Positions 11,140-47,970 of a stretch of 64,000 nucleotides of DNA are shown piece by piece (the first letter of the stretch is position 1; each line of letters starts with the position of its first letter). Where the stretch lies: NCBI RefSeq assembly GCF_003544935.1, contig NZ_CP032098.1:1612001-1676000 (forward strand). The letters are read 5' to 3'. The notes beneath the pieces are model-generated. The model made no database searches and was not told the origin of the DNA. It worked only from the letters and a program-made list of their open reading frames with translations. Both the position numbers and the translations under genes were made by a program. Origin of the DNA: Malaciobacter molluscorum LMG 25693. GTDB lineage: Bacteria; Campylobacterota; Campylobacteria; Campylobacterales; Arcobacteraceae.

Positions 11140-11808
11140 TTAATTTAAACAAGCTTTTACAAAATCTTTAAATATTTTTCTATGTTCTTTTATATAAAAA
11201 AGATATTCTGGATGCCATTGTACTGCTAACATAAAAGGATAATTTTTCTTTTCAATTGCTTGTATTAATCCTTTATACTTTGCAGTAACTTTTAAATCTT
11301 CCCCTACTTTATGTATTGCTTGATTATGAAGACTATTTGCTTTAAGTTTTTCTTTTTTTACAATATCAAAAAGTTTACTTTTCTTTTTTATAAAAATATC
11401 TTTTATTGGAAATATAGAATTTTTATGTATTAAATACTCTTCAATATCCAAAACCGTTGGATATAAATCTCCATCAAAAAATATATTTAGAAGTTGTGCT
11501 CCACGACATATTCCAAATATGGGAATTCTTTTTTGAACTGCTGTTTTTATCATATCAAGTTCAAAAGCGTCTCTTTTTTTATCGAGTTTTGTATTATGGG
11601 CTTCCTTTTTTCCACCATATAATAAAGGATTTATATCACTACCACCACTTAATATTAAACCATCAATTTTATCTTTTGAACTATGTTCATCTGGTCTTAA
11701 GCTGACAGCTTTTGCATTTGCTAAAAAAAGGCTAAATCTAATAAAGATTTCTGCTAGTTTATTACCTTTATTTGGTAAACAAACTCCAATTATTGGTTTT
11801 TTACACAT
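11140..11808 (-). CDS. Class I glutamine amidotransferase / gamma-glutamyl hydrolase (peptidase C26)
   Basis: 222 residues with the full class I amidotransferase triad: nucleophile Cys101 in FGICRGAQLLNI, and His199/Glu201 in VQWHPEYLF. DGLILSGGSDINPLLYG (about 49-65) is the typical C26 oxyanion-side motif seen in PuuD. Such enzymes hydrolyse gamma-glutamyl amide bonds. It overlaps the end of the amidoligase gene by 19 bases and must be co-translated with it, so the likely role is cleavage or editing of the gamma-glutamyl product made by that ligase, not purine or general putrescine metabolism. No puuABC genes are nearby. Confidence 0.9.
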   Translation of the reverse strand: MCKKPIIGVCLPNKGNKLAEIFIRFSLFLANAKAVSLRPDEHSSKDKIDGLILSGGSDINPLLYGGKKEAHNTKLDKKRDAFELDMIKTAVQKRIPIFGICRGAQLLNIFFDGDLYPTVLDIEEYLIHKNSIFPIKDIFIKKKSKLFDIVKKEKLKANSLHNQAIHKVGEDLKVTAKYKGLIQAIEKKNYPFMLAVQWHPEYLFYIKEHRKIFKDFVKACLN

Positions 11809-12788
11809 TTACTTACTTTTTCTTCCCATGTTGTGAAGTTTATAAATTTTTCTAAATGAAATAGATATTTCTTACTAAGTTTAGATAAAAGCTTTGTATC
11901 ATTTGCTACTCTTTCTACATATAGCCATCTATTCCATTCATCAGAAATTTTCCAATCTTCTTCACCAACTAAAGAATTTGATAATCTATAATGAAATGCT
12001 GGTCTTGGATTTATTTTCTCTTTTTTTAAACTTTTTCTGACTTTTGATTCATCTATAAAAGCAAATATCGGTAACATATCTAATGATCTATTTCTTGTAG
12101 GATTATATTTAATATAATCATCTATTAATTCATCAATTGTAGGTTCATAACTTTCTGATAATATTTTATTTATATAATCTTCTTTAAATTTATCAATATA
12201 TGGAGTAATCTTTCTAGCTATATCAATTTTTGCATCTTTTACTAAAAAAGTTTCTAAAATTACATATGCTCTTAAATAATTTAATAAAGACTGTACATCT
12301 AAAGAAGATACTTCTATATTTATATGTAATCCAAATGCATTATAAACCTTTTTTTTAGTTCCATGAGCTCCTAATTTGTAAAGATTATCACTTAATTTAT
12401 CAATCATTGAAATTTTGTCTAAAGGAATTGGTGGTGTGCTTATTTCATAAGGAACTAAATCTTTTGATATAGAACCTATTATATCTTCAACTTTTTCAAT
12501 TCTTGTTCCATCAATTTTCATTCCCATTTTATTGAAAAAATCTACTACATTTGATTTTAACTTTTGTTTTGTTAAAAGTTCAAAATCAAGTTCAGCAATA
12601 AAATCTCCAAACTCACTATCAAAAGTATAAAGAAAGTTATTTACCTTTGTCTCCTTTAAATTATAAGTTTTCTTAAGTAAAGATACTATTTTTTTTATTC
12701 TCATATTTGAGAACTCAATTTCAAAACCAACCTTTCTTATATTTCCCTCATAGTTTTGAGTTACTTTTGGCATTTTGAAACTATTCAT
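11790..12788 (-). CDS. Putative amidoligase (glutamine-synthetase-like fold, PF12224 type)
   Basis: 332 residues. VGFEIEFSNM near the N-terminus (about 20-29), GDFIAELDFELL (about 75-86) and GLHINIEV (about 170) are the metal/ATP-binding glutamates and histidine of the predicted amidoligases described by comparative genomics as COOH-NH2 ligases related to glutamine synthetase. Family members are regularly paired with a class I amidotransferase, as here (19-base overlap). Together they are predicted to add and remove amide-linked groups on a peptide, protein or cell-wall substrate. No substrate is indicated by the neighbours. Membrane helices and signal peptide are absent. Confidence 0.85.
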   Translation of the reverse strand: MNSFKMPKVTQNYEGNIRKVGFEIEFSNMRIKKIVSLLKKTYNLKETKVNNFLYTFDSEFGDFIAELDFELLTKQKLKSNVVDFFNKMGMKIDGTRIEKVEDIIGSISKDLVPYEISTPPIPLDKISMIDKLSDNLYKLGAHGTKKKVYNAFGLHINIEVSSLDVQSLLNYLRAYVILETFLVKDAKIDIARKITPYIDKFKEDYINKILSESYEPTIDELIDDYIKYNPTRNRSLDMLPIFAFIDESKVRKSLKKEKINPRPAFHYRLSNSLVGEEDWKISDEWNRWLYVERVANDTKLLSKLSKKYLFHLEKFINFTTWEEKVSKCVKNQ

Positions 12789-12950
12789 TTTTTACCTTTT
12801 TATTACTATTGGTTTTTATAAATTATAACAGTAAGTTCTTAAATGCAAATTATTTTAAATTATATTTTTCGTTATTTTTATGTATTAAATATATATTTTA
12901 TAGATTATTTTATTTTTTCATTTAATATTTATCTAAGTTTATTATGTTAG

Positions 12951-13016
12951 ATTTACACTATTAATGTAATTTATTTACATATTAATTGTAAATATTTTAC
13001 ATTTAATTTGAAAGGA
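12951..13016. promoter_or_regulatory. 22-bp-phased operator array upstream of ectA
   Basis: TTACA occurs at 12953, 12975 and 12997 and TGTAA at 12965 and 12987, all with a 22-base period, giving three tandem copies of a 22-base unit (the third degenerate). The half-sites combine into two perfect dyads TGTAA-N5-TTACA at 12965-12979 and 12987-13001 whose centres are 22 bases apart, two helical turns. The array abuts the ectA ribosome-binding site AAAGGA (about 13012-13017). It looks like a cooperative operator for a dimeric regulator of the ectoine operon; the regulator is not encoded next to it. Confidence 0.65.
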
Positions 13017-13023
13017 TTTAACA

Positions 13024-13521
13024 ATGGGAACCCAAATTAAATTAACTGAACCCGAAAAATCTGACGGTAAAAAGATATTTAATTTAATAAATAGATGTAA
13101 ACCACTAGATGTAAATTCTGAATACTTATACCTACTTCAATCTACTTATTTTAGTAATACTTGTAGTGTTGCAAAAATTGACAATGAAGTTATAGGATTT
13201 ATCTCTGGTTATTTAGTACCAAACAAGAGTGACACACTCTTTATATGGCAAGTAGCAGTAGATGAGAGAGCTAGAGGAAAATCAGTTGCAAAAAATCTAC
13301 TTTTAGAAATATTAAATAGAGAATGTAATAATAATATAAAATATATACATACTACAATTTCTCCAGATAATAAAGCTTCGCAACGATTTTTTGAAAAGTT
13401 CGCAAATGATTTTGATGCAAATGTAGAATCTTCAACTTTTTTAGAAATAGAAGATTTTAACAACGCACATGAAAAAGAGGTCTTATATAAAATTGGACCA
13501 TTAAATAAAGGGAAAAAATGA
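13024..13521 (+). CDS. ectA: L-2,4-diaminobutyrate acetyltransferase EctA
   Basis: 165 residues, GNAT fold. The acetyl-CoA loop is seen in IWQVAVDERARGKSVAKNLL (about 75-94), followed by the EctA-specific HTTISPDNKASQRFFEKFA. It acetylates diaminobutyrate at N4, the second committed step of ectoine synthesis. First gene of ectABC-ask; the stop overlaps the ectB start by four bases (ATGA). Start choice is supported by AAAGGA just upstream. No ectR gene accompanies the operon. Confidence 0.96.
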   Translation: MGTQIKLTEPEKSDGKKIFNLINRCKPLDVNSEYLYLLQSTYFSNTCSVAKIDNEVIGFISGYLVPNKSDTLFIWQVAVDERARGKSVAKNLLLEILNRECNNNIKYIHTTISPDNKASQRFFEKFANDFDANVESSTFLEIEDFNNAHEKEVLYKIGPLNKGKK

Positions 13522-14798
13522 GAATATTTGAAAATTTAGAATCTGAAGTTAGAGGTTATATTAGAAGCTTTCCAACAATATTTGAAAAGTCAAAAGCTGC
13601 AATATTAACAAATGAACAAGGTGAGGATTATATTGATTTTTTTGCCGGAGCAGGAACACTAAATTATGGTCATAATAATGAACATATAAGTAAAGCACTT
13701 GTTGAATATATACAAAAAGATGGAGTTGTTCATGGTCTTGATATGGCAACTACTGCAAAAAAAGAATTTTTACAAACATTTAATGACACAATATTAGTAC
13801 CTAGAAACTTAGATTATAAAGTTCAATTTACAGGACCAACAGGAACAAATGCTGTAGAAACTGCTTTAAAACTTGCAAGACTAGTAAAGGGACGAAGTAA
13901 TGTTGTTTCATTTACAAATGGTTTCCATGGTTTAACTCAAGGTTCATCTTCAGTAACAGGAAACAATGACTATAGAGATGAAAGTTATATTAGTAGATCA
14001 AATGTATCATTTATGCCATTTGATGGTTATTTTGGTGATATGAATACTATGAGTATTTTTAGAAAATTTTTAGAAGATAGTAGTAGTGGTCTTGATATTC
14101 CAGCAGCTGTTATAGTTGAAACTATTCAAGGTGAAGGTGGAATTAATGTAGCTAGTAAAGAGTGGTTACAAGAACTTGAATCTATTTGTAGAGAATATGA
14201 TATATTATTAATCATTGACGATATTCAAGTTGGTAATGGAAGAACTGGTGAATTTTTCTCGTTTGAATTTGCAGGGATAAATCCTGATATTGTAACAATA
14301 TCAAAATCAATTGGTGGCGGATTACCTATGGCAATTGTATTATTAAAACCAGATTTAGACCAATGGAAACCAGGTGAACATACAGGTACATTTAGGGGAA
14401 ATAATTTAGCCTTTGTAGCTGCAAAAGTTGCGATTGAACACTATTGGCAAAATGATGATTTATCAAATGCAGTTAAATATAAAGAAAAAATATTAAAAGA
14501 AAATTTACAAAAAATAGCTGATAAATATAAAGATAGTTTTGATGTTGAAGTTAGAGGAAGAGGTCTAGCTTATGGATTTGAAATAAAAGGTGACAATTCA
14601 GTTGCCAGTGAAATTTCAAAATATGCATTTGAAGAAAAACTAATAGTAGAAACTTGTGGTAGTGAAGACCAAGTTGTAAAATTTTTACCACCATTGATTG
14701 TGGATGAAGAGACACTAATGGAAGGTTTAAAAAGACTTGATACAGCTATTTCAAAACTAGTTGCAGATAAAAAAGAAAAATTAACAGAGGAATTTTAA
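13518..14798 (+). CDS. ectB: Diaminobutyrate-2-oxoglutarate transaminase EctB
   Basis: 426 residues, class III PLP aminotransferase. PLP-site features: TGPTGTNAVETALKLAR (about 110), the Asp of LLIIDDIQVGNGRTG (about 237) and the Schiff-base lysine in TISKSIGGGLPMAIV (about 267). It converts aspartate semialdehyde plus glutamate to 2,4-diaminobutyrate and 2-oxoglutarate. Length and motifs are typical of EctB. Translationally coupled to ectA; ectC starts one base after its stop codon. Confidence 0.97.
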   Translation: MRIFENLESEVRGYIRSFPTIFEKSKAAILTNEQGEDYIDFFAGAGTLNYGHNNEHISKALVEYIQKDGVVHGLDMATTAKKEFLQTFNDTILVPRNLDYKVQFTGPTGTNAVETALKLARLVKGRSNVVSFTNGFHGLTQGSSSVTGNNDYRDESYISRSNVSFMPFDGYFGDMNTMSIFRKFLEDSSSGLDIPAAVIVETIQGEGGINVASKEWLQELESICREYDILLIIDDIQVGNGRTGEFFSFEFAGINPDIVTISKSIGGGLPMAIVLLKPDLDQWKPGEHTGTFRGNNLAFVAAKVAIEHYWQNDDLSNAVKYKEKILKENLQKIADKYKDSFDVEVRGRGLAYGFEIKGDNSVASEISKYAFEEKLIVETCGSEDQVVKFLPPLIVDEETLMEGLKRLDTAISKLVADKKEKLTEEF

Positions 14799-14799
14799 A

Positions 14800-15195
14800 A
14801 TGATAGTAAGAGATATTAATAAAGATATTATAGGTACACCAAAAGAAGTTCATGCTCAAGAAGGACAATGGGTTAGTAGAAGAATGCTTTTAAAAGGTGA
14901 TAATATGGGATTTTCATTTCATGAAACTATCATAAAAGCAAATACAAAAACTCATATTCACTATCAAAACCATCTTGAAGCTGTTTATTGTGTAGCAGGA
15001 AATGGCAAAATTGAAGATTTAAAAACTGGAAAAGTTCATGAAATTTATGATGGCGTAATGTATGCTTTAAATGAACATGATGATCATAATTTGTATGGAG
15101 GAACTGAAGATATGAGACTTATTTGTGTATTTAATCCTCCTATTAAAGGAACAGAAAATCATGATGAAAATGGTGTTTATCCCTTAGAAGATTAA
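14800..15195 (+). CDS. ectC: L-ectoine synthase EctC
   Basis: 131 residues, cupin-fold cyclase that closes N4-acetyl-diaminobutyrate to ectoine. Family features: MIVRDINKDIIGT at the start, the cupin metal motif in HIHYQNHLEAVYCVAGNG (about 51-68) and HDDHNLYGG later. No ectD (ectoine hydroxylase) follows, so the product is ectoine rather than hydroxyectoine as far as this operon shows. Slightly acidic, cytoplasmic. Confidence 0.97.
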   Translation: MIVRDINKDIIGTPKEVHAQEGQWVSRRMLLKGDNMGFSFHETIIKANTKTHIHYQNHLEAVYCVAGNGKIEDLKTGKVHEIYDGVMYALNEHDDHNLYGGTEDMRLICVFNPPIKGTENHDENGVYPLED

Positions 15196-15242: not shown

Positions 15243-16619
15243 ATGAAAGTATGCAAATTTGGTGGAAGTTCAGTAAAGAACTCCACCCAAATAAAAAAAA
15301 TAGTAGAAATAGTTAAAAGAGATGATAAAAGACAAGTTATAGTAGTTTCAGCACCAGGAAGAGATGAAACTTATGATGAAAAAATTACAGACCACTTGCT
15401 AAACTTAGCAACACAAGGTCAACACTTTTTAGAACATAAAATTGATGTAACTGAACAAAATAGTTTTGAAGCTATTCTTTCAAAATATAATAAATTATGT
15501 GATGACTTACAAATACCAAAAGATGGTATCTTAGATAATTTAGAAAATGACTTACAAAATTGTAAACTCCAAGATGATAAAAAGATAGCTTTTTTTCTAT
15601 CAAGAGGAGAACACTATAACGCAAAGATAATCGCAAGATATATGAAAAAAGTAGGTATAAATATAAAACTTATGTTACCTGAAGAATTTGGATTTATTTT
15701 AAGTGATTGCTATACAGATGGTAAAGTTCAAGAACAAACTTATACTAATATCAAAAAACATTTAGTTTTAAAAGATAATGAAAAAGTAATAATTCCTGGA
15801 TTTTACGGAATAACAAAAGGTAAAGAAATTGCAGTCATGAGTAGAGGTGGTTCTGATTTAACTGGTGGAGAATTAGCATATGCACTTGATGCAGATATTT
15901 ATGAAAACTGGACAGATACTGATGGTGTTTATGAAGTTGACCCAAGAGTTATTCCTAATGCAAATGTAATTCCTAGACTTACTTTTAAAGAATTAAGATT
16001 ACTTAGTTCAAAAGGTTTTAATGTATTTCACTTTAATGCAATGTTAAATTGTAAAAAAAGTAAAATTCCAATTAGAGTAAGAAATACAAATAACCCTACA
16101 AATAAGGGTACTGTGATATTAAGTGAAAGAGTTCCTATGGAAAAACTTGTAGGAATTGCAAAACTTGACAATATGGCATCTATTCATATACAAAAAGCAA
16201 TGTTAGGTGAAGAAGTAGGTTTCACCGCAGAACTATTAAAAATATTTGGAGAATTTGGAATAAATACTTATCATTATCCTACAGATAAGGATGATTTAGC
16301 TATATTAGTAGAGCAAGAAGATTTAAAAGGAAATATCAATAACTTAAGAAGAGCAATAGATAAAAGATTAAAACCTGATAATATTTTTATCACATATTCT
16401 TTATCTGTAATTACTCTTGTGGGAATTGGATTAAAAGAAGATTCTTTTACTATTGTAGATGCACTTACGGCATTAAAAGAAAATAACATAGCATTTGAAA
16501 TGTTTGACATGAGTCCTTCTAAAATTTCATTTCACATTGGAGTTGCCCAAAATATCTCTGATATTGCATTAGAGACATTATATGAAAAGTTATTGACAAA
16601 AGATAATTGTATTTGTTAA
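15243..16619 (+). CDS. ask: Aspartate kinase dedicated to ectoine synthesis (Ask_Ect type)
   Basis: 458 residues. Starts with the aspartokinase signature KVCKFGGSSVKNS; catalytic domain to about residue 300 (VMSRGGSDLTGGELAYALDADIYENWTD) and two C-terminal ACT domains. It phosphorylates aspartate, feeding aspartate semialdehyde to EctB. Ectoine-linked aspartokinases are known as feedback-insensitive paralogues that sit in ectABC operons; placement 47 bases after ectC supports that role over the general lysine/threonine enzyme. Aspartate semialdehyde dehydrogenase is not in the cluster and must come from elsewhere. Confidence 0.93.
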   Translation: MKVCKFGGSSVKNSTQIKKIVEIVKRDDKRQVIVVSAPGRDETYDEKITDHLLNLATQGQHFLEHKIDVTEQNSFEAILSKYNKLCDDLQIPKDGILDNLENDLQNCKLQDDKKIAFFLSRGEHYNAKIIARYMKKVGINIKLMLPEEFGFILSDCYTDGKVQEQTYTNIKKHLVLKDNEKVIIPGFYGITKGKEIAVMSRGGSDLTGGELAYALDADIYENWTDTDGVYEVDPRVIPNANVIPRLTFKELRLLSSKGFNVFHFNAMLNCKKSKIPIRVRNTNNPTNKGTVILSERVPMEKLVGIAKLDNMASIHIQKAMLGEEVGFTAELLKIFGEFGINTYHYPTDKDDLAILVEQEDLKGNINNLRRAIDKRLKPDNIFITYSLSVITLVGIGLKEDSFTIVDALTALKENNIAFEMFDMSPSKISFHIGVAQNISDIALETLYEKLLTKDNCIC

Positions 16620-46695: not shown

Positions 46696-47586
46696 ATGGC
46701 AAAAAGTTTATACGAAACATTGGAAGTAAGCGAACACGCTACAAAAGATGAAATAAAAAAAGCATATAGAAAATTAGCAAGAAAATATCACCCTGATGTA
46801 AATAAAGATCCAAAAGCAGAGGATAAATTCAAAGAAATAAATGCAGCATATGAAGTATTAAGTGACCCAGAAAAAAAACAACAATATGATCAATTTGGTG
46901 ATTCTATGTTTGGTGGTCAAAACTTCCATGACTTTGCACGCGGTCAAGCGGGTTCAGGTATTGACTTAGATGAAATACTAAGACAAATGTTTGGACAACA
47001 AGGTGGATTTGGAGGTGGTGGTTTTTCTAGTGCCTTTGGACAAGGTGGATTTTCTAATAGTGGATTTGGTGGATATGAAGAACCAAATTTAGATTTGAAT
47101 GCACAAATAACAATTGCATTTGATGTATCTATTCTTGGAGGTAAACAACATATTTCTTTAAATAATGAATCATTTGATATTAAAATCCCAGAAGGTATTA
47201 AAGATGGTCAAAAAATTAGAGCAAAAGGAAAAGGTAAATCTATGGGCTCTAAAAGAGGTGATTTAATTATTAAAGTAAATGTATCTACAAGTCCTGAATA
47301 CCAAAGAGATGAAGATACACTAATAAAAACATTTAACATTCCTTTAAAAACAGCAATGTTTGGAGGAAAAGTAGAAATAAAAACAATTCATAAAACAATT
47401 ACATTAAAAGTTCCAGAAAATACAAAAGAAAATCAGAAATTTAGAGTTAAAGAGCTTGGTGTATATAACAGAAAAACTGGTAAAAGAGGTGATTTACATC
47501 TAAAAGCAAATATAAAACTTCCAAAAATTGAAGAATTAAATGAAGATTTAGTAAAAATGTTAAAAGAGAAGTTACCACGGGAGTAA
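46696..47586 (+). CDS. cbpA: DnaJ family co-chaperone CbpA
   Basis: 296 residues. J domain (about 1-70) with HPD in [10 protein letters not shown], a Gly/Phe-rich linker (about 75-125, with GGFGGGGF) and DnaJ C-terminal beta domains; no cysteine-rich zinc finger, which separates CbpA from DnaJ. It stimulates Hsp70 and binds non-native proteins. Cotranscribed with hspR (three bases between), an arrangement known from Helicobacter and Campylobacter, from the HAIR-controlled promoter upstream. Confidence 0.94.
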
Positions 47587-47589
47587 AAT

Positions 47590-47970
47590 ATGAAAAATAA
47601 TGCATACAATGAGCCTGTATATTTAATATCAGCAGTTGCACAAATTCTTAATATTCATCCTCAAACTTTAAGACAATATGAAAGAGAAGGCTTGATTAAG
47701 CCTTCTCGAACAAATGGAAAGATTAGACTCTATTCACAAAAAGATATTGATCATATAAAATATGTACTTACGCTTACAAGAGAATTAGGAATTAATTTAG
47801 CTGGAGTTGATTTAATATTAAGATTAAATGAAAAAATAGAAAAATTAGAAGATGAAATATCTAGTTATAAAAATAAAATGAAAAAAATAAACAAATTTGG
47901 AATTGTTCCAAATTCAAAAGCATTAGTAATTAAAAAAAGTTCGTATGATGTTGTTATATTTGAAGAGTGA
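47590..47970 (+). CDS. hspR: Heat-shock repressor HspR (MerR family)
   Basis: 126 residues. N-terminal MerR helix-turn-helix AVAQILNIHPQTLRQYEREGLIKPSRTNGKIRLYSQKDIDHIKYVLTL, then a coiled coil (about 75-100). HspR represses cbpA and chaperone genes at HAIR sites; here one such site lies on its own operon promoter, giving an autoregulatory loop. Converges with ftsZ and shares a hairpin with it. Confidence 0.93.
   Translation: MKNNAYNEPVYLISAVAQILNIHPQTLRQYEREGLIKPSRTNGKIRLYSQKDIDHIKYVLTLTRELGINLAGVDLILRLNEKIEKLEDEISSYKNKMKKINKFGIVPNSKALVIKKSSYDVVIFEE

Follow-up and report, generated by a model that had tools for sequence, protein, structure and literature searches.

Tandem 22-bp repeats before the ectoine operon resemble docking sites for a salt-stress switch shared among marine relatives of Arcobacter

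The ectA Locus and the Layout of the Array

The window analyzed here is a stretch of 64,000 nucleotides from the genome of Malaciobacter molluscorum LMG 25693 (NZ_CP032098.1, positions 1,612,001 to 1,676,000), and plain coordinates refer to it. An ectoine operon and an aspartokinase gene follow a predicted promoter and a tandem array of short repeats. The features are as follows.

12934..12953, + strand: predicted ectA promoter, with TAAGTTTA at 12934-12941, TATG at 12943-12946, and the extended -10 element TG-n-TAGATT at 12945-12953
12953..12969: operator unit 1, TTACA-N7-TGTAA, 10/10
12965..12979: first TGTAA-N5-TTACA dyad, an alternative reading of the lattice
12975..12991: operator unit 2, TTACA-N7-TGTAA, 10/10
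12987..13001: second TGTAA-N5-TTACA dyad, an alternative reading of the lattice
12997..13013: operator unit 3, TTACA-N7-TGAAA, 9/10, reaching into the ribosome-binding site
13011..13016, + strand: ribosome-binding site AAAGGA, recognized by eye
13024..13521, + strand: ectA, diaminobutyrate acetyltransferase (NCBIfam TIGR02406, 187 bits, cutoff 120.6)
13518..14798, + strand: ectB, diaminobutyrate-2-oxoglutarate transaminase (NCBIfam TIGR02407, 647.8 bits, cutoff 552.2)
14800..15195, + strand: ectC, ectoine synthase (Pfam PF06339, 187.8 bits)
15243..16619, + strand: aspartokinase gene (ask_ect-like), 3' of ectC (Pfam AA_kinase; NCBIfam TIGR00657 above cutoff)

On the other side of the array, putative Amidoligase_2 and peptidase C26 genes (11140-12788) overlap each other and are divergent from ectA.

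The half-site TTACA is present at 12953-12957, 12975-12979, and 12997-13001, with an exact spacing of 22 bp, and TGTAA is present at 12965-12969 and 12987-12991. The recurrence at this spacing and the two perfect TGTAA-N5-TTACA dyads had been recognized in the sequence-only reading, and their positions are confirmed. A sixth half-site, TGAAA at 13009-13013, matches in 4/5 bases, lies in register, and overlaps the ribosome-binding site. The full lattice is TTACA-N7-TGTAA-N5-TTACA-N7-TGTAA-N5-TTACA-N7-TGAAA, with a period of 22 and a span of 12953-13013. At ectA it is equally readable as TTACA-N7-TGTAA units or as TGTAA-N5-TTACA dyads, and the latter reading, with TGTAA on the left, is the orientation of GlnR sites. 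In a set of 49 arrays, the N7 unit scored better in 26, equally in 7, and worse than the N5 unit in 16 (P = 0.012), a weak split by which the operator unit may be TTACA-N7-TGTAA and not TGTAA-N5-TTACA. The two-unit score over these arrays, which had been selected as arrays, peaks at an arm spacing of 7 bp (18.1 vs. 12.6-15.2). The arrays of L022, L024, and G336 finish as N5 units. Some entries of the set are badly placed (the proV array of G007 scored 17), and start codons are uncertain for several proV genes, G413, and G388.

When the 200 bp upstream of ectA are aligned for six species of the genus, the runs of at least four bases that stay invariant are TAAGTTTA, ATTTACA, ATGTAA, and TATG; they correspond to the promoter (TAAGTTTA and TATG) and the first operator unit (ATTTACA and ATGTAA). 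The conserved extended -10 element directly adjoins the array in the genus, and from this arrangement the ectA transcription start is predicted near 12960. Among the 49 arrays of all contexts, an extended -10 element scoring at least 6/8 is found at the array edge in only 27%; its position is less clear for proV arrays, several of which have no clear -10 element at the edge. The first placements were biased, as the tie-break favors the array edge and TGTAA resembles an extended -10 element, and without the tie-break the mean -10 score at the edge (-1) is exceeded by those at offsets 21, 43, 18, 40, and 65, within the array. Inside the array, the scoring is confounded by the half-sites, and thus the genus alignment alone serves as the evidence for the -10 element.

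Chance and Specificity of the Repeats

The window contains two perfect TGTAA-N5-TTACA dyads against 0.25 expected. The dyad alone is weak evidence, because 4 of 100 shuffles also gave two or more. In the whole genome (2.8 Mb), the dyad occurs in 21 copies, compared with 5 for the reversed pattern, and among 15 copies for which loci are available, 11 are inside predicted genes, the other four being L003, L009, L012, and L015. A single dyad was therefore rejected as evidence. The unusual feature is the three-unit 22-bp register: the ectA array scores 29/30, while the maximum among 2000 Markov-simulated 230-bp windows is 22. Thus, the earlier claim that the pattern is unlikely by chance is valid for the array and not for the dyad, and the same division applies to the refutation it had proposed, high frequency in the genome, which the single dyad shows and the tandem array does not.

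One of the dyads outside genes, at L012:1501-1545 (TGTAATATAATTACATTAAGTTACA), lies directly 5' of a gene for a 219-aa helix-turn-helix protein, phage-repressor-like by eye. This site is possibly unrelated and autoregulatory.

The mean three-unit score of the 49 arrays is 24.8 at the period of 22 and 17.9-19.1 at 16 other periods between 17 and 33, although the height of this peak is partly due to selection, since the 49 had been picked as arrays. A search for the exact lattice with up to two mismatches found matches in 12 of 60 genomes, while the reversed pattern matched in 1 of the 60; a few of the matches are probably coding, as judged by eye.

Conservation Upstream of ectA

A search with EctA in 100 relatives gave matches in 28, and 27 loci are ectA genes; L043 and L044, weak matches to something other than ectA, were left out. 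An array scoring at least 23/30 is present upstream of ectA in 24 of the 27 loci. The sequence-only reading had regarded a lack of conservation in close relatives as a refutation, and on this point it is not refuted. The loci below the threshold are L031 (score 21; G032), L030 (16; G006), and L033 (15; G025). The two lowest, L030 and L033, belong to genomes that are 99% and 95% complete, and no ortholog of the MerR-family gene described below was found in either; in G032, with its weak ect array, the gene was not found in a genome that is 84% complete. The ectA array of G082 (L040; L238:5582-5680) contains irregular extra half-sites with N3-N4 spacing and possibly represents a different array geometry.

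Eighty ect loci from named genomes, partly on the same contigs as those of the relatives, were also screened; L047, L056, L060, L075, and L096 could not be scored for the array and were excluded from that scoring. The MerR gene was found in 10 and an array of at least 23 in 11, all labelled Campylobacterota. The ect loci of other groups, many of them richer in GC, score at most 19. Neither the gene nor the array was found in the Campylobacterota-labelled ect loci L057, L062, L063, L064, and L066, or in L065, whose label is doubtful.

A Small HspR-like MerR-Family Protein as the Candidate Regulator

No MarR-like protein was found among nine proteins scanned between 10179 and 20868, a selection of the open reading frames there, two of them without a Pfam family. 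This agrees with the earlier statement that no EctR is encoded next door, and EctR or another MarR-type neighbor was rejected on this basis.

The best candidate for the regulator of the array, as far as sequence comparison indicates, is a 113-aa HspR-like protein of the MerR family. Its gene in the source genome (G000:C1:2073355-2073693) is outside the window, between mgtE and an array-bearing BCCT transporter gene. The protein belongs to the MerR superfamily (Pfam MerR_1, 30.1 bits, cutoff 21.6). Its top NCBIfam match is HspR, and three orthologs score 40.2, 43.6, and 43.4 bits against the HspR equivalog NF047375, below the cutoff of 105. A true HspR is encoded in the window itself at 47590-47970 (117.9 bits), behind a DnaJ/CbpA-type gene (the pair spans 46696-47970). 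It is a gene separate from the osmotic MerR gene and is not favored as the array regulator. Weak second MerR matches are present in many genomes with and without arrays, and among them only the one in the window was identified as HspR.

The modelled ortholog L050 (pLDDT 81.6, pTM 0.75) consists of a MerR winged helix and C-terminal helices, with no further domain. Among the matches listed, the fold resembles mostly MerR-family chains: two, both PbrR, with E-values ≤0.001, then GlnR with DNA, and lower down NmlR, described as 'lacking the sensor domain', and TnrA with DNA. Matches to the RSV F-protein among the structures found by sequence were taken as chance.

Linkage and Co-Occurrence of the Gene and the Array

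Orthologs of the MerR gene (E-value < 1e-30) were found in 34 of the 100 relatives, and both searches together yielded 49 orthologous genes, one per genome. In 44 of the 49, the gene lies within 4 kb of osmolyte genes: ect in 22, proVWX in 11 (one of which, in G038, is nearer to kamA), BCCT in 8, and putA/proB in 3. For the other five, this distance contains none of the genes sought, and one of these five sits on a stretch of 2.6 kb. The sequence-only reading had postulated an unlinked regulator. This description fits the present genus, with approximately 448 kb between the MerR gene and the ect operon in the source genome, and does not fit the group, considering the 22 other genomes in which the gene lies within 4 kb of ect.

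An array of at least 23 is located within 4 kb of the MerR gene in 36 of the 49 genomes, compared with 0 of 49 in the same DNA reversed; the source genome and G005 are among the remaining 13, with BCCT arrays below the threshold, and in some of the rest the array sits further off. The 22 most frequent neighbor clusters within about 4 kb comprise osmolyte genes, general neighbors, the MerR gene, and one response regulator, which is the only other regulator among them and is found in 8 of the 49 genomes. In G001, the MerR gene is kept behind mgtE (L212:4712-5086), with no BCCT gene next to it and no array there.

A profile built from sequence alone was trained on 23 ect arrays and run on the 100 relatives. 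From the 27 ectA loci, L030, L031, and L033 (below 23) and L040 (23, irregular spacing) had been dropped before the training. An array with E-value ≤ 1e-3 is present in 29 of the 34 relatives with the MerR gene and in 1 of the 66 without it (G032). Of 397 genomes drawn from the phylum, some of them identical with these relatives, 32 have both, 4 the gene only, 1 the array only, and 360 neither (Fisher P = 1e-41, shared ancestry ignored); these P values overstate independence, because the genomes share ancestry. The gene-only genomes (G022, G095, G237, and G386) have arrays of 23-26/30 on closer reading. The array-only genome, G437, has a weak site and no MerR gene; the site, before an ATP-synthase-like gene by eye, is a probable false positive. 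Within the genus label g11, at least 8 genomes with the gene all have the array, and at least 9 without the gene have none. No ectA match was obtained in 10 of the 34 relatives with the MerR gene, and the MerR gene was not found in 3 of the 27 ectA genomes. A cleaner test, given that ect arrays served as the training set, is restricted to genomes lacking ect: there, 6 of the 10 that carry the MerR gene also have the array, whereas none of the 63 that lack the gene does (P = 1.2e-6).

Other Genes Preceded by the Array

The profile found 17 distinct non-ect sites in the 100 relatives (E-value ≤ 1e-3), and 14 of them precede BCCT, proV, or KamA-family genes. One protein per kind of target was named by NCBIfam and the rest by similarity. 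Seven sites are before BCCT transporter genes (G000, G002, G003, G004, G005, G027, and G036) and six before proV (G002, G007, G010, G045, G046, and G054), the G007 site having a BCCT-like gene on its other side. Single sites precede genes for a KamA-family aminomutase (G038), a TRAP solute-binding protein (G030), an NADP-glutamate dehydrogenase (G051), and a gene of unknown function (G048). Lysine 2,3-aminomutase would catalyze the first step toward acetyl-beta-lysine. No chaperone gene was seen behind any of the 17 sites, one target being unknown. Sites before ect, BCCT, proV, and KamA-family genes are the distribution expected of a regulator of osmolyte genes, and the implication of a regulator of osmoadaptation in the sequence-only reading is borne out to this extent by the HspR-like MerR candidate and by the arrays before BCCT and proV genes. 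The regulon, as predicted, also takes in BCCT, ProU, and probably further osmolyte genes.

In the source genome, the BCCT array is at 2073831-2073884 (E-value 3.9e-5), and its three-unit score is 21, as in G005. In distant relatives, the array is located between the MerR gene and proV (G426, G235, and G095) or between the MerR gene and putA/proB (G427, G214, and G386). In three genomes of the genus label g35 (L329, L330, and L335), the array lies between the MerR gene and a putA-like or proB gene that runs divergently from it, which suggests that proline metabolism joins the regulon. Glutamate is the counter-ion of potassium, and the array before the NADP-glutamate dehydrogenase gene (L278:3055-3098 in G051) would tie glutamate to the osmotic regulon.

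Profile matches with E-values above about 0.004 were not used, as many of those inspected are inside predicted genes. Weaker matches before plausible targets include those of TRAP genes in the source genome (1.5e-3) and G005 (0.011), a sodium-dependent transporter gene in G002 (0.013), and proV in G059 (0.0028) and G035 (0.020). The TRAP-operon array of the source genome, at 949126-949168, has two units. In that region (L155:1552-7181; G000:C1:946551-952180), response regulator and HisKA_2 kinase genes are followed by the array-bearing DctPQM TRAP operon, whose substrate is possibly an osmolyte.

Comparison with Known Regulators

The closest parallels are the heat-shock repressor HspR with its HAIR operator, in Helicobacter pylori and Streptomyces, and the nitrogen regulators GlnR/TnrA of Bacillota. 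Modulation by a chaperone, CbpA or DnaK, is a trait of HspR, and control of nitrogen assimilation via glutamine synthetase is one of GlnR/TnrA. HspR is likewise a small protein with a MerR-type winged helix and an N7-spaced inverted repeat, and in the excerpts of PMC6102357 the H. pylori protein is modelled as three cooperative dimers on an operator of approximately 70 bp around that repeat. The arms of HAIR are CTTGAGT-N7-ACTCAAG and lie before chaperone genes, unlike TTACA/TGTAA and the osmolyte targets here, and the ectA array is not a HAIR operator. All three units match the consensus here, whereas only the center does in HspR. GlnR/TnrA bind TGTNA-N7-TNACA, according to the excerpts of PMC6191146. 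They share the half-site letters with the array and are the closest solved structures by sequence (4r4e and 7tec), and GlnR also matches the winged-helix fold of the modelled ortholog (4r4e_B, TMt 0.78). Their arms are 7 bp apart, while those of the array are 5 bp apart, or 7 bp only in the opposite orientation; TTACA-N7-TGTAA is the inverse of the GlnR/TnrA operator. A single 17-bp site suffices there, in contrast to the 22-bp lattice here, and the targets are different. An exact match in half-site letters and spacing is found with neither HspR nor GlnR, and by analogy the array at ectA resembles the HspR/GlnR arrangement extended into a lattice.

EctR of methylotrophs and CosR of Vibrio also regulate ect expression. 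EctR is a MarR protein and differs in its site, two 8-bp halves 2 bp apart. The excerpts of PMC5924519 describe it as binding over a -10 region and as encoded beside ect in 97 of 510 surveyed producers, all Alpha-, Beta-, or Gammaproteobacteria. EctR, CosR, and BusR, the regulators covered by that review, belong to other families or groups. BusR of Lactococcus lactis is a member of the GntR-like family, and its protein family and operator are different from the MerR protein and its array. It resembles the system postulated here, in that a response to ionic strength and control over compatible-solute uptake have been proposed for it (PMC5924519).

In titles and beginnings of abstracts of the open-access literature, among the matches listed, no MerR regulator of ectoine or betaine genes was found for this phylum, in line with the earlier supposition of a probably undescribed regulator. 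The available portions of two Arcobacter genome papers (PMC10336517 and PMC5495459) mention ectoine genes and contain no occurrence of MerR. The candidate would be a MerR/HspR-like regulator, probably a repressor, for which both the operator and the osmotic regulon are new.

Proposed Mechanism and Alternatives

The repeats look like docking sites of a shared switch, and it is likely that dimers of the HspR-like MerR protein on the array repress ectA and are released by salt. Approximately three dimers would line up on a single face of the helix at intervals of 22 bp, covering the -10 element and the ectA transcript start and excluding RNA polymerase. Hyperosmotic shock would release the complex and turn on ectABC, and the same release would switch on glycine-betaine uptake (BCCT and ProU) and other array-bearing osmolyte genes. 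Computation shows that the array exists and is conserved, that it is common to a regulon, that it co-occurs with the MerR gene and is linked to it, and that a conserved -10 element adjoins it in the genus; from these results we infer that the protein binds directly and cooperatively, represses, and is released by salt. An array over the start and leader has the geometry of a repressor site, and judging from this position there is a good chance that the MerR protein acts as a repressor.

For the signal, ionic strength would be a natural guess, since the review cited above (PMC5924519) gives it as the proposed signal of BusR and CosR and as a possible one of EctR. A bolder version is tentative: a sensorless MerR protein might be the master osmoregulator of many Campylobacterota, reading cytoplasmic ionic strength via the stability of a cooperative dimer lattice on half-sites phased at 22 bp. 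It is similarly doubtful, though conceivable, that the osmosensor would be the protein-DNA and dimer-dimer contacts alone, with no ligand domain. Because the MerR protein shows no effector domain, the question of osmotic sensing is directly testable with one protein and a 61-bp DNA. The system would be a candidate master switch of salt adaptation for marine and host-associated Campylobacterota, with a defined protein, operator, and regulon. It would also add the control of osmolytes to that of heat and nitrogen responses in the HspR/GlnR-like branch of MerR proteins.

The same protein could bind the array and activate, either in the classical MerR mode or from the lattice. Most of the well-known MerR proteins are activators; the ectA start is a prediction, and several proV arrays have no clear -10 element at their edge. 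Against this, the extended -10 element of the genus lies directly before the array, which places the array over the start and leader and not in the -35/-10 spacer, and for GlnR, a site immediately downstream of a promoter is assigned to repression in the excerpts of PMC6191146. Activation is considered unlikely. Still less probable is a role of another regulator, such as a two-component response regulator, with the MerR gene merely travelling with osmolyte genes. MerR binding of the array is itself a prediction, a response regulator and a kinase adjoin the array-bearing TRAP operon in the source genome, and a response-regulator cluster is near the MerR gene in 8 of 49 loci; on the other hand, of the regulators in the 22 clusters listed, only MerR recurs next to ect, BCCT, proVWX, and putA alike, the presence of the array tracks that of the MerR gene even in genomes without ect, and the perfect dyads fit a symmetric dimer.

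It is very improbable that the repeats work at the RNA level, with alternating hairpins of the leader forming a 5' UTR that responds to temperature or osmolarity. The 88 nt of the leader do fold better than shuffled sequences (z = -3.2, with 1 shuffle in 200 equally good), as would be expected of a palindromic array. Changes on both sides were observed in 3 of 15 pairs, against 3.1 in shuffles, and on the present evidence this reading was rejected for the absence of covariation. What is conserved is the letters and not the pairings, and the array tracks a gene for a DNA-binding protein.
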